Assembly (NCBI GenBank): GCA_003166865.1
Contig: PMUP01000048.1
Coordinates: 1-32,812, forward strand
Origin: Bryobacterales bacterium
GTDB taxonomy: Bacteria > Acidobacteriota > Terriglobia > Bryobacterales > Bryobacteraceae
Reading direction: 5' to 3'
DNA length: 32,812 nt
Shown here: in pieces, positions 1 through 26,217 of the stretch
Numbering within the stretch: the first letter of the stretch is position 1
Layout of the letters: each line of letters begins with the position of its first letter
Notes under the pieces: model-generated
Told to the model about the DNA's origin: nothing
Seen by the model: only the letters and a program-made list of their open reading frames with translations
Database searches by the model: none
Translations under genes and position numbers: made by a program

Positions 1-654
1 TGCGCTCCGCTACGAGTCTGCATCATCGAGCTGCAGGCCGGCGAGAAGATCGTTGGCGAGCCGCACATCGGCGATTCGGTCCGGTGGAACATCTCGCCCG
101 CGATGTATGGGACCGGTGATCAAGCGACTGCGGTCATTATCCTCAAACCGCAGACACCCGGCCTCGACACGAATCTACTGATTACTACGGATCGCCGCGC
201 CTATTATCTCCGACTCATCTCAAAGCCCGAAGACTACATCGCGCGTGTCGCGTTCGCATATCCAGACGACGATGCCCGCAAGTGGCAACAGCATCTGGTG
301 GAACAACAGGCTCTAGCGAAACAGGAGAAACACGCAGCGGAAATGCCGGCGGCCATGATTACCGTCGAAAAGATGAACTTCGATTACACGATCCGCGGTG
401 GCGATGAGCACATTCGCCCGGTGCGTGTGTTCGATGACGGTGCAAAGACCTATATCCAGATGCCGCCGGAGCTTCAGCATCGGGAAGCGCCGGTATTGCT
501 TGTCGTGGGGAACGACGGCAAAGGCGAGATGACGAACTACCGGGTGAAAGACCAAACCTATATCGTGGACCGCCTCTTCGATCGCGCCAACCTCGTGCTT
601 GGAGCGGGCAAGAAGGCCCAGAAAGTGGAGATCAGCCGTGGACACAAACAATAA
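1..654 (+). CDS. trbG: TrbG/VirB9-family conjugal transfer protein (5' truncated by window edge)
   Basis: The reading frame is open from base 1, so the gene begins outside the window; the first ATG in view (103) is internal. TrbG/VirB9 is a periplasmic/outer-membrane part of the type IV secretion core complex that contacts VirB7 and VirB10. Visible hallmarks are the N-terminal-domain stretch 'IELQAGEKI' followed by 'VRWNISPA' and a block with 'TTDRRAYYLRLIS', and the C-terminal domain running from 'MNFDYTIRGG' through 'VRVFDDGAKTYIQMP' to 'YIVDRLFDRANLVLG' and 'KVEISR', all characteristic of the family. It overlaps the next gene (trbI) by 17 bases, the usual trbG-trbI order. It belongs to an integrated conjugative element whose bulk lies to the left of the window. 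Confidence 0.9.
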   Translation, partial: CAPLRVCIIELQAGEKIVGEPHIGDSVRWNISPAMYGTGDQATAVIILKPQTPGLDTNLLITTDRRAYYLRLISKPEDYIARVAFAYPDDDARKWQQHLVEQQALAKQEKHAAEMPAAMITVEKMNFDYTIRGGDEHIRPVRVFDDGAKTYIQMPPELQHREAPVLLVVGNDGKGEMTNYRVKDQTYIVDRLFDRANLVLGAGKKAQKVEISRGHKQ

Positions 655-2119
655 CCCCGATCACCAGCCGCTCGAAGCACCAAGCGAGGAGCTACTAAAG
701 GGAGCAGCTCCCAGCGGAATCGATCTCCATCCCCAGCCTGCGAAAGCAGTTCGCATCAGCCGGCGGACAACCGTGATGATCTTGTCCGTGATCGTCCTTC
801 TGCTGCTGGGATTTGCCTACGGTGGGTACCGCCGAACTCTTAGCAATCAAAACGCTGCGCGCGAGGCGGGTCTGCCAAAGAGCGTCACTCCCGCAACACA
901 GGCGGCCTCGGAGTTTATGCAGACGACTCCGGCGGGCACCGTGCCGATGGCCCTGCGGCCGCCTGATGTGCCGGCGCTTCCGCAAACGATGACATCCCCG
1001 TGCGTCGCCGATCCGAAAACCGGGCAGCCCTACCGGTTCAATCCACAAACCGGCCAGCCCTGCGACGGCCTTCCCCAGGAACGAGTCGTCGTGCGGCAAC
1101 CGAACGCAATACGAACACCTCCGGTCGCTCCAATGCCAGTCCACGAGGAGACACCCGAACAGCGCCTGATTGCAGCAGCCTACCAGCGAGAGCAGGAAGC
1201 CATCCAGGCTCCGACGAGCGTTCGCAATTCCGCCGCATCGTCGTTGTCACCAACCATCGCGCAGCCCGCCTCGAACGATCTTTCTCAGGTCGAAGCGCTG
1301 AGCCATGCTCTGAGCGCACGGCAGGGGGGTGATTCTGCTGCTCCGGCAAACGGACAGGCTCTCGAAAACGACTACGACAGCCAGAACATGCAATCCCGCA
1401 AGGAAGCTTTCCTCGCCGCTAATCGGACGCGCCGGGCTGATGACTATCTTCGCTCCAACCGCGAAGCTCCGCTCTCGCGATACGAAATCAAAGCGGGCTG
1501 GGAGATTCCAGCCGTTCTCGAACAATCCCTCAACTCAGATCTTCCAGGAGAGCTAAAGGCGCTGGTGACTTCCAACGTCTACGACACTGCTACGGGCCTC
1601 TACCTCTTAATTCCGCAAGGTTCCCGCCTGATCGGAAGATATGACTCGCGCATTTCCTACGGACAGGATGGCGTTCAAGTCGCCTGGAGTCGCGTCATCT
1701 ACCCAGACGCTTCCTCGGTGGATCTCGACGGCATGATGGGCCTTGATTCCCATGGTAACGCTGGCCTACGAGACAAGGTGGATCACCACTACCTCCGAAT
1801 CGTTGGATTCTCGGTCCTCACTAGCATGTTCACCGCTGCCTTCGATATCTCGCAGAGGACCAGCCAAAGCGCTCTTACGTACCCGACACCAGCTCAAACA
1901 GCCGGAAGCGCGGTGGGCGAGGAACTCAGCCAAACCGGTGCTCAGATCACCCGTCGCAACCTCAATGTGCAACCGACGATCAAGGTGCCCGCAGGCTACA
2001 AGTTCGTGGTCCGCGTAAATCGTGACATCTTGTTCGAATCTCCGTACCAGCCGATTCAAGCTGGCAGCGCGAACGAGAGTTCTAAGAGCACGCTGACCAG
2101 GACACCTGGTTTGCGGTGA
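638..2119 (+). CDS. trbI: TrbI/VirB10-family conjugal transfer protein
   Basis: TrbI/VirB10 spans the inner membrane and periplasm of the type IV secretion channel and links the inner-membrane ATPases to the outer-membrane core. The 493-residue product has a short cytoplasmic tail, one membrane helix at about residues 45-65 ('VMILSVIVLLLLGFAYGG'), a long Pro/Gln/Ala-rich periplasmic linker, and a C-terminal beta-barrel domain with the family signatures 'SDLPGELKALV', 'VYDTATGLYLLIPQGSRLIG' and 'DLDGMMGLDSHGNAGL'. I chose the GTG at 638 over an upstream ATG at 599 because it has a GGAG ribosome-binding site 7 nt before it and only a 17-base overlap with trbG. Four bases separate its stop from the next gene. 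Confidence 0.9.
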   Translation: MDTNNNPDHQPLEAPSEELLKGAAPSGIDLHPQPAKAVRISRRTTVMILSVIVLLLLGFAYGGYRRTLSNQNAAREAGLPKSVTPATQAASEFMQTTPAGTVPMALRPPDVPALPQTMTSPCVADPKTGQPYRFNPQTGQPCDGLPQERVVVRQPNAIRTPPVAPMPVHEETPEQRLIAAAYQREQEAIQAPTSVRNSAASSLSPTIAQPASNDLSQVEALSHALSARQGGDSAAPANGQALENDYDSQNMQSRKEAFLAANRTRRADDYLRSNREAPLSRYEIKAGWEIPAVLEQSLNSDLPGELKALVTSNVYDTATGLYLLIPQGSRLIGRYDSRISYGQDGVQVAWSRVIYPDASSVDLDGMMGLDSHGNAGLRDKVDHHYLRIVGFSVLTSMFTAAFDISQRTSQSALTYPTPAQTAGSAVGEELSQTGAQITRRNLNVQPTIKVPAGYKFVVRVNRDILFESPYQPIQAGSANESSKSTLTRTPGLR

Positions 2120-2123
2120 GCCT

Positions 2124-2360
2124 ATGCAGCCGAATCAGGATTTGCACGAACCCGAGTCACCCGGCGTGGCTTTCGAGCGGGTTCTAAACACTGAGGAAGC
2201 AGCCGCCCTACTCCAAATTCATCCAAAGACTCTCCAGCGGATGGCGCGACAAGGCTTAGTTCCAGGATTCCGTGTCGGAGACCTCTGGCGGTTTCGGGCT
2301 TCGGCCCTAGACGAGTGGCTGCGTTCTGGCGTATGCTCAAAACGCCACTCGTGTCGTTGA
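2124..2360 (+). CDS. Excisionase-like helix-turn-helix DNA-binding protein
   Basis: This 78-residue protein has a MerR/HTH_17-type 'excisionase family' DNA-binding domain at about residues 20-65: 'LNTEEAAALLQIHPKTLQRM' followed by 'GLVPGFRVGDLWRFRASALDEWL'. The pattern of a recognition helix followed by an arginine-rich wing ('WRFRASALDEWL') is typical of small proteins next to phage and ICE integrases, where they bend DNA for excision or regulate the element. It starts 4 nt after trbI and ends 19 nt before the integrase, so it is most likely co-transcribed with both. Whether it acts as a directionality factor or a transcription factor cannot be told from sequence. Confidence 0.85.
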   Translation: MQPNQDLHEPESPGVAFERVLNTEEAAALLQIHPKTLQRMARQGLVPGFRVGDLWRFRASALDEWLRSGVCSKRHSCR

Positions 2361-2379
2361 TACGAAAGGAAGGTTTTTC

Positions 2380-3564
2380 GTGTTTACGCGCACGCGATAT
2401 CAGTATGGAAGTTTGGAAACCAAAGAACGGAAAAAAGGAAAGGAGGTATGGGAGTTTCGATACTACGAACCTGATGCTCGGGGCGAACGCCAGCGCCGGG
2501 CTGTCATGGTTGGGACCCAGGAAGAGTATCCGACCGAATCCGCCGCGAGAAAATCTCCTGTTGTGCAGGCGATCCTATTGCGGCTGAATGCAGAGCAACC
2601 GAGTGCGGCCGGTGCTGCCAATTTTGGAGCAGTGATCGCGCGATACGAGCAGGAAGAAATGCCGGAACGGTATTCAACAAGCGCAGCTTACCAGTCGTAC
2701 ATCAAGAACCAGATCAGGCCGCGCTGGGCCGATACGCCCGTGAGTGCCGTCAAGCCGATGGCAGTTGAGGACTGGCTGAGGAATCTGGCTCTGGCCCCGA
2801 AGACCAGAAGCCACGTCCGAAGTCTTATGCACACGATTTTTCAGTGTGCGGAGCGGTGGGAACTGATCGATAAGAACCCGATCAAGCTGGTTCGGGTTAA
2901 GGGTGGGACCAAGCGCCTCAAAACGCCTCGCGTCCTGGCTCCCGAGCAGTTCCATTCGTTGCTGCCGTTGATTCGGGAGCCGTACCGGACAATGGTGCTG
3001 ATCGCGGGGTGCCTGGGCCTGCGGGTTAGCGAGATCGTTGGACTTCAGTGGGGGGATTTCGATTTCCCTGGATTCACGCTGTTGATCCAAAGGAGCGTGG
3101 TTCACGGCAGGGTCGGGGACGTGAAGACCGAATACTCGCGGGATAGCGTTCCGCTCGACACGGCGGTTGTCGAGGCTCTAGTGTTGCATAAGGCACGGTC
3201 GTTCTCCACGCCGGAGGGATGGCTGTTCGCCAATCCGGCTACGGGGAGGCCATACCATCAGGAGGAGATTCAGAAGAGGCACATCCGCAAAGCTGGCGTC
3301 GCAACCGGAATCGGTGGCGATATCGGATGGCACACATTCCGTCACAGCTATCGATCGTGGTTGGATGAAACTGGAGCGCCTCTCACCGTCCAAAAGGAGT
3401 TGATGCGTCACGCGAGCATCCAGACGACGATGAACATTTATGGGAAGGCCATGACGGACAGTAAGCGTCAGGCTCACAGCAAAGTTGTTGAGATGGTCTT
3501 AAATAGCAGCAAATCGAAGGAAACCGTTGGCCGGAACAACCCGGCTACTGCTATTGGGAGTTAA
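2380..3564 (+). CDS. int: Tyrosine-type site-specific integrase of the conjugative element
   Basis: This 394-residue recombinase would cut and rejoin the element's attachment sites. It has an N-terminal arm-binding region, a SAM-like core-binding domain (about 85-175: 'YQSYIKNQIRPRWADTPVSAV', split here by its own ends) and a C-terminal catalytic domain with all expected residues: R215 in 'GCLGLRVSEI', K249 in 'DVKTEYSRDSVPLD', H318 and R321 in 'HTFRHSYRSWLD', H344 in 'LMRHASIQTT' and the nucleophile Y354 in 'MNIYG'. The GTG start at 2380 has an AAAGGAAGG ribosome-binding site 7 nt upstream. The gene appears intact. It reads toward, and ends 48 bases before, the 3' end of an initiator tRNA gene, the normal layout for an integrase beside its attachment site. 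Confidence 0.93.
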   Translation: MFTRTRYQYGSLETKERKKGKEVWEFRYYEPDARGERQRRAVMVGTQEEYPTESAARKSPVVQAILLRLNAEQPSAAGAANFGAVIARYEQEEMPERYSTSAAYQSYIKNQIRPRWADTPVSAVKPMAVEDWLRNLALAPKTRSHVRSLMHTIFQCAERWELIDKNPIKLVRVKGGTKRLKTPRVLAPEQFHSLLPLIREPYRTMVLIAGCLGLRVSEIVGLQWGDFDFPGFTLLIQRSVVHGRVGDVKTEYSRDSVPLDTAVVEALVLHKARSFSTPEGWLFANPATGRPYHQEEIQKRHIRKAGVATGIGGDIGWHTFRHSYRSWLDETGAPLTVQKELMRHASIQTTMNIYGKAMTDSKRQAHSKVVEMVLNSSKSKETVGRNNPATAIGS

Positions 3565-3594
3565 TGGGAGTTTTTTGGGTCGCTCAGAATCTGT

Positions 3595-3612
3595 GCAACC
3601 GATTGAAAGGAT

Positions 3613-3619
<7 letters not shown>
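3595..3619. repeat. Inverted repeat overlapping the tRNA 3' end; candidate attachment-site core
   Basis: GCAACC (3595-3600) and GGTTGC (3614-3619) form a perfect 6-bp inverted repeat around a 13-base centre; flanking GATT/GATT copies add weaker similarity. The right arm is the tRNA acceptor and CCA end itself. Tyrosine recombinases commonly bind such inverted half-sites in the 3' part of tRNA genes, so this is a plausible recombination core, though a chance repeat or a tRNA-terminator hairpin is also possible. Confidence 0.4.
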
Positions 3620-3689
<70 letters not shown>

Positions 3690-25647: not shown

Positions 25648-26211
25648 TCAGGCTTCCGGCAGCGGGCAAAACGCGCCTTCCGAGAATCCGTCCGCGAGAA
25701 TAGCAAAGGTGCGATTGAAACGGGCGCGATAGTTCTCCCAAGCGATGGCTGTTGCCAGTTCCACAAGTTGCGGTTCGGTGAATTCGGCGCGCAGGGCGGC
25801 GAAGAGCTGGTCGTCCACAGTCGCCGGTGTCTTGGTCAACGATACCGTGAGTCGCAACGCCAGCTTTTCGGCGGCGCCAAAGTCGTCGCTTTCTTCAAAG
25901 CGCGCCAGGTCATGTAACTGTCCTTCCGTAATTCCGGCTTCCCTGCCCACGGCAGAGTGAATGTCGATTCAAAACGGGCATCCGACCAGCATTGCGACTT
26001 TCAGCTGCACCAGCTCCTTGAGCGCCGGCGGAATCGTCCGCGCCGATGAGCATACGGCGTCCATCCACGTGGTTGCGAGCAGCGTCGGAGTGTGGTGGGC
26101 GGCGAGCGTCTTTGACTTGGGCACCCGCCCGAGGCGCTTGTGCAGCGCTCGGTAGAGAATCTTCGTGATCCAGCCCGCCTCGGAGGCGGTGACACCAGTG
26201 GCTCGTTCCAT
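25648..26211 (-). CDS. AhpD/carboxymuconolactone decarboxylase-fold protein, probable selenoprotein (UGA at codon 81)
   Basis: Two same-frame open pieces (26211-25972 and 25968-25648) are separated only by a TGA at 25969-25971. Read through, they give one 187-residue protein, the usual length of AhpD-type alkylhydroperoxidases. The active-site arrangement is exact: E66, then C78 twelve residues on, then the UGA at 81 (C-P-F-U), then H85. In M. tuberculosis AhpD the equivalents are E118, C130, C133 and H137, with C133 the peroxide-reacting Cys, so selenocysteine would sit at the attacking position. A hairpin fitting a bacterial SECIS follows (separate entry). No other stop, frameshift or deletion is visible. 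A single Cys-to-stop mutation (a pseudogene) is the alternative. A -10-like box ends 6 nt before the ATG. Divergent from the SnoaL-like gene. Confidence 0.8.
25941..25957 (-). promoter_or_regulatory. Bacterial SECIS-like hairpin downstream of the in-frame UGA
   Basis: In the minus-strand mRNA CUCUGCC (25957-25951) pairs with GGCAGGG (25947-25941) in seven pairs, one of them G.U, around a GUG loop (25950-25948). The stem begins 11 nt and the loop 18 nt after the UGA. Bacterial SECIS elements sit just after the UGA with a short apical loop whose first two bases include a G, at roughly this distance, so the element meets the known rule. Confidence 0.75.
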
Positions 26212-26217
26212 GTCCTC

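Follow-up and report, generated by a model that had tools for sequence, protein, structure and literature searches.

In the 32,812-nucleotide stretch of Bryobacterales DNA analysed here (contig PMUP01000048.1, hereafter the window), the gene at positions 25648 to 26211 of the minus strand very probably (about 95%) encodes an AhpD-like selenoprotein of 187 residues from the carboxymuconolactone decarboxylase (CMD) superfamily, in which an RNA hairpin would direct selenocysteine (Sec) to residue 81 and for which peroxide or electrophile chemistry is proposed. The gene, the Sec machinery of its genome, the conservation of its in-frame UGA among relatives, the RNA hairpin downstream and the predicted protein fold are all computational findings. 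The gene is a member of a previously described class of bacterial selenoproteins and leaves the known kinds unchanged, as CMD/AhpD-like CxxU selenoproteins have been reported before and a nearby NCBIfam model is itself named for a "(seleno)protein."

Gene structure

Read from 26211 to 25648, the gene has an ATG start, a single internal TGA at 25971-25969 (codon 81) and a TGA terminator, while the plus strand of 25648-26211 carries unrelated stops. A preliminary description of this DNA had correctly given one frame with a single TGA at 25969-25971 and had left the strand, which is the minus strand, unstated. The sequence GAGGA at 26213-26217 (minus strand), just 5' of the ATG, is a probable Shine-Dalgarno element. 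The internal TGA is the last codon of a Cys-Pro-Phe-Sec (CPFU) motif (codons 78-81) that begins with Cys78; Glu66 lies 12 residues before Cys78 and His85 four residues after codon 81, so that the motif and spacing noted earlier hold in the window protein. The expectation that the gene would be annotated as two broken reading frames is also borne out: the mechanical list of open reading frames shows it as two pieces, 25969-26211 (80 aa) and 25648-25950 (100 aa), and the present reading corrects a gene that this list splits.

Protein family, predicted fold and proposed chemistry

The protein matches the Pfam CMD domain (PF02627) with 53.1 bits against a gathering cut-off of 23, over residues 57-122 and hence across the TGA. 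For the AhpD core domain (TIGR00778), the score is 43.2 bits against 27.8. It scores below the cut-offs of the AhpD subfamily (TIGR00777, 13.1 vs 191.95 bits), the peroxidase-related enzymes (TIGR01926, 38.5 vs 81.8 bits) and the YciW-related (seleno)proteins (NF053654, 96.6 vs 310 bits). NF053654 is the best NCBIfam match, covering residues 1-172, and the score below its cut-off means that the window protein is not a formal member; all 24 rows of the alignment with relatives (18 Sec and 6 Cys forms) match this model. The AlphaFold2 model, in which Sec is modelled as Cys, is all-helical, with a pLDDT of 94.7 and a pTM of 0.90, and in it Cys78 is predicted to lie just before a helix formed by residues 79-92, with Sec81 within its first turn. 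Structures of Bmp8 take the first three places among the fold matches, followed by the peroxidase-related and antioxidant-type proteins 2pfx, 3c1l and 2prr; 6k40 of D. radiodurans matches at a TM score of 0.83.

In AhpD, the second Cys of the CxxC motif attacks peroxide and the first Cys resolves the product, while a conserved Glu and a conserved His around the motif serve as a relay. For the window gene, we infer the insertion of Sec itself, chemistry of the peroxidase type and the identity of both substrate and reductant. In the proposed mechanism, SelB attaches to the hairpin that begins 11 nt past the UGA and delivers Sec-tRNA-Sec to codon 81, which would put Sec into the Cys-Pro-Phe-Sec motif where a helix of the all-helical fold begins. 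Because Sec occupies the position of the second Cys of AhpD, its selenolate would most likely attack a peroxide or some other electrophile, Cys78 would act as the resolving thiol and the selenylsulfide would then be reset by a thiol reductant. Of the Cys-x-x-Sec peroxidase originally put forward, the Sec part is strongly supported by the machinery, the conserved TGA/Cys column and the covarying hairpin described below, whereas the peroxidase activity is proposed by analogy with AhpD.

Glu66 and His85 of the window protein are at a spacing that we take to match the active-site Glu and His of AhpD. An AhpD active site can therefore be claimed for the window protein and its two nearest relatives, all of which have both residues, but not as a feature of the family, in which Glu is found in five and His in three of 25 aligned rows. 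Since the two residues are not conserved, the Glu/His relay does not belong to a mechanism common to the family. The protein may instead be a genuine selenoprotein that reductively cleaves a bond other than that of a peroxide, as the debrominase Bmp8 does, an explanation that contains the same Sec residue as the preferred one and that we consider improbable, although it is the best of the alternatives. Bmp8 not only provides the top fold matches but also matches in sequence over residues 18-168, and the lack of a conserved Glu and His fits such chemistry; the peroxidase-related proteins and the AhpD of S. pneumoniae, however, fit the fold about equally well, PA0269-type proteins match better by sequence and the neighbouring genes are not conserved. 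A slightly more doubtful suggestion is that the relatives form a subfamily, mainly Sec-bearing within one probable Acidobacteriota family, in which Sec acts without the Glu/His relay, possibly in reductive dehalogenation by the selenolate or in some other reduction of non-peroxide substrates by an enzyme related in fold to Bmp8.

Gene neighbourhood

None of the four neighbours of the gene in the window had a tblastn match at 27 loci of relatives with flanks of up to 1.5 kb, where the window protein, used as a positive control, was found in 27 of 27. Because the neighbours are not conserved within 1.5 kb, the neighbourhood provides neither an operon argument nor a functional hint. At the other end of the window, positions 103-3689 encode conjugal transfer proteins of the CagX and TrbI families and then a phage-type integrase, the end of which adjoins a tRNA-Met gene (3613-3689, minus strand); this region may be one end of a conjugative element that has integrated at the tRNA.

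Conservation of the in-frame TGA among relatives

Matches to the window protein at E ≤0.001, mostly distant, are present in 187 of 237 genomes of the same family. Thirty family loci were fetched, family matches without a fetched locus being left unread, and 25 of the 30 were aligned, the more distant CxxC relatives L045, L046, L047, L049 and L050 being dropped. The column of codon 81 holds TGA at 22 and Cys at three of the aligned loci (22 TGA and eight Cys if the dropped loci are counted), and Cys78 is present in 25 of 25. In the phylum-wide set, 34 of 396 genomes, the own genome counted, have matches at E ≤1e-15, and of the 29 new loci among them, 18 carry TGA and 11 carry Cys at the aligned site. 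The alignment of homologues at codon 81, proposed at the outset as a check, therefore finds TGA or Cys in the same column at all 54 aligned loci (25 family and 29 phylum), and the TGA is kept at the same codon in relatives down to ~30% identity. A scan of a named genome collection gave 75 loci, and the site, read in 14 of them, was Cys in every case; this result cannot count against TGA forms because the scan pattern itself demanded Cys. On the evidence of these aligned sequences, the TGA at codon 81 is almost certainly read as Sec.

Under the standard code the frame is broken, and the gene could be regarded as an inactive AhpD-like pseudogene in which a nonsense mutation has left two decaying fragments. 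This is very improbable in view of the 40 TGA loci (22 family, including the gene itself, and 18 phylum), which have TGA in one column, and of the covarying hairpin described below. The preliminary description had named other inactivating lesions in relatives as grounds for a pseudogene, and the matched stretches of these loci contain no stop besides the TGA. In 13 pairs (12 of Sec genes and one of Cys genes), dN/dS by the Nei-Gojobori method ranges from 0 to 0.51 on the 5' side of the TGA, with one value undefined, and from 0.03 to 0.22 on the 3' side, figures that are rough because many dS values are near saturation. The 3' part is more constrained than the 5' part in 11 of the 12 pairs that have both values. 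Comparison of the coding sequences thus indicates that purifying selection acts on both sides of the TGA, the 3' side included, and, with dN/dS below 1 on both sides and the 3' side the tighter, the gene is unlike a decaying one. Equally improbable is that the UGA is read through or reassigned to another amino acid such as Trp, or that two proteins are translated separately, for which the GTG start of the second half past the TGA would speak, as other relatives carry Cys rather than Trp at the site, the gene itself terminates in TGA and the CMD domain match straddles the internal one.

The own genome has seven CMD-family matches, of which only the window gene has an internal stop. Each of the genomes G214, G215, G309 and G492 has two matches to the window protein with one TGA in each, perhaps two selenoprotein paralogues. 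The genome G205 contains a homologue with two TGA codons in the match (C14:109129-109611), and in that genome the nearest relative of the window gene has Cys.

The downstream hairpin

A hairpin of the bacterial SECIS type is found at 25941-25957 (minus strand), with arms at 25957-25951 and 25947-25941 that form a 7-bp stem and a GTG loop at 25950-25948. Its first stem base follows the UGA after 11 nt and its loop after 18 nt, exactly as the hairpin had been placed from the sequence before. In the section of PMC13188914 that sets out the bacterial SECIS model, the limits are a loop of 3-9 nt, a stem of 4-16 bp, a G within the first two positions of the loop, a distance of 16-37 nt from the UGA and a minimum free energy of -7.5 kcal/mol or lower. 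The window hairpin is within every limit (7 bp, 3-nt GTG loop, 18 nt and -9.1 kcal/mol by a simple count), and by the same simple count so are the hairpins of 16 of the 22 family TGA loci, own included, while the remaining six miss the energy limit, three of them by 0.1. The three Cys relatives have hairpins of -6.3 to -8.8 kcal/mol 25 nt away, and the fit of the window hairpin to the SECIS model, another check suggested at the outset, is shared by two of these three controls at another distance.

The hairpin is unremarkable in its single-sequence stability, and its significance comes from the comparison across relatives. Single-sequence folding against shuffles gave no significant signal in four cuts (z of -1.59, -0.29, -0.56 and 0.55), and 162 of 2000 synonymous recodings of the window gene equalled or exceeded the hairpin in stability; over five genes, this control gave 162, 181, 139, 44 and 17 of 2000. 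Across 22 distinct sequences, 92.9% of the cells of the stem are paired, compared with 31-51% for partners displaced by 1-3 columns; this control gives an advantage to a structure drawn from the consensus. Both sides of the stem are changed in 18 cells, and the covariation score was reached by none of 500 shuffles; less extreme were two other measures, since 19 of 500 shuffles have as many doubly changed pairs (three) and 78 of 500 as many further pair types (seven). The clearest compensatory case is L037, in which three pairs differ and all still pair, and the innermost pair is unpaired in seven of the 22 sequences. Of the 17 genes that encode Arg at one position of the 3' arm, 16 use AGA or AGG there, compared with 22 of 268 Arg codons elsewhere in the same genes, a bias whose significance is overstated by Fisher's test (p of 6e-15) because the genes are related.

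A covariance model of the hairpin was built from the 22 sequences. The window site scores 60.7 bits, as expected of a site that helped to build the model, and the second-best site of the own genome reaches 16.7 bits among the 150 scored of 3318 first-look candidates. Among held-out loci, the model recovers seven of 18 TGA loci and none of 33 Cys loci at E <0.05, the best Cys locus having an E of 0.12; the 33 include one duplicate, as L052 and L033 are apparently one gene from two collections, and protein similarity helps the model since it holds sequence as well as structure. For the other 11 held-out TGA loci, the hairpin starts 1-2 bases later in nine and at the same place in L127, and L130 has none like it. 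At the gathering threshold, the Rfam search of the whole window had a tRNA as its sole match.

Seven distant CxxU relatives from the phylum-wide set (L133, L138, L140, L145, L148, L149 and L153), with motifs such as CEYU-LASH, CDYU and CRYU, keep the His at +4 and have a hairpin that begins 1-2 bases later than that of the window gene. They are apparently other Sec subfamilies.

Selenocysteine machinery

The genome from which the window comes (6.67 Mb in 107 contigs, ~96% complete) contains a tRNA-Sec with the anticodon tca at C18:100339-100430, which scores 68.2 bits and is also found by ARAGORN, together with SelB (375 bits), SelA (505 bits) and SelD (366 bits), all above their curated cut-offs. 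The absence of selA, selB, selC or selD, which would have argued for a pseudogene according to the preliminary description, is therefore not observed: all four are present and the genome, as judged by its gene content, is able to make selenoproteins.

Among the 237 genomes of the same family, SelA is above its cut-off in 187. Twenty of the 22 genomes with TGA have a strong SelA match, G214 has a weak one (1.7e-10) and G172 has none. In the 25 genomes tested (22 TGA and three Cys), most of them draft assemblies, SelB is above its cut-off in 24, and tRNA-Sec is matched by Rfam's own cut-off in all 25, although a tRNA-Ser from the own genome is among the matches of 47-48 bits at this level; with the threshold raised to 60 bits, tRNA-Sec is found in 22 genomes, those missing being G172, G062 and G148. 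The TGA genome G172 has neither SelA nor a convincing tRNA-Sec, possibly as a result of incomplete assembly. SelA, SelB and tRNA-Sec are also present in the three Cys genomes. Because most family genomes have SelA, the Sec machinery speaks for a capability and does not discriminate between TGA and Cys forms.

Comparison with known systems

CMD-domain and AhpD-like selenoproteins with a CxxU motif are described in a 2005 report on the Sargasso Sea (PMC1088965), which bears out the earlier statement that AhpD-like selenoproteins are known from bacteria. The counts from the Global Ocean Sampling survey include 299 AhpD-like 1 and 70 AhpD-like 2 (pfam02627) selenoproteins, and nonmarine samples are described there as richer in the latter (PMC2398784); both the CMD-domain and the AhpD-like kinds appear in recent reviews (PMC9312934, PMC13188914). 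For Acidobacteria, a table in a 2006 paper lists four selenoproteins in three families (PMC1794560), and a text search of the two recent reviews found no occurrence of "Acidobacteri..." (PMC9312934, PMC13188914). The present results indicate that CMD-type CxxU selenoproteins are scattered probably across the phylum Acidobacteriota. Related genomes carry one and the same protein with either Sec or Cys, which makes this protein suited to a direct test of what Sec contributes.

Among proteins of known structure, Bmp8 and the peroxidase-related CMD proteins (6ohi, 2prr, 3c1l and 6k40) are the best or near-best folds, with TM scores of ~0.78-0.83 by query length; they differ from the window protein in having 18-22% identity to it and mostly unknown substrates, and presumably in being Cys rather than Sec enzymes. 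The PA0269-type CMD proteins (2ijc, 2o4d and 7xw1) are the best solved relatives by sequence (E of ~6e-10), with TM scores of 0.66-0.69 by query and 0.87-0.92 by target, but their chains are shorter, the solved structures having 133-145 residues, and the identity is 26-27%. Of the proteins named AhpD, that of S. pneumoniae (6e8l) is a fold match with an E of 1.5e-5 and TM scores of 0.77-0.80, whereas that of M. tuberculosis (1knc and 1gu9) matches weakly (TM scores of 0.43-0.49 by query length, E of 0.46-0.94); the CxxC spacing is common to these proteins and the window protein, which has Sec in place of the second Cys. The closest parallel in kind is with the known CMD-like and AhpD-like CxxU selenoproteins (PF02627; COG2128/TIGR01926), which have a CMD domain, Sec at the last position of CxxU and a downstream hairpin, as is found here. 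The window protein is divergent from TIGR01926, and its likeness to these selenoproteins is drawn from their descriptions rather than from their sequences.
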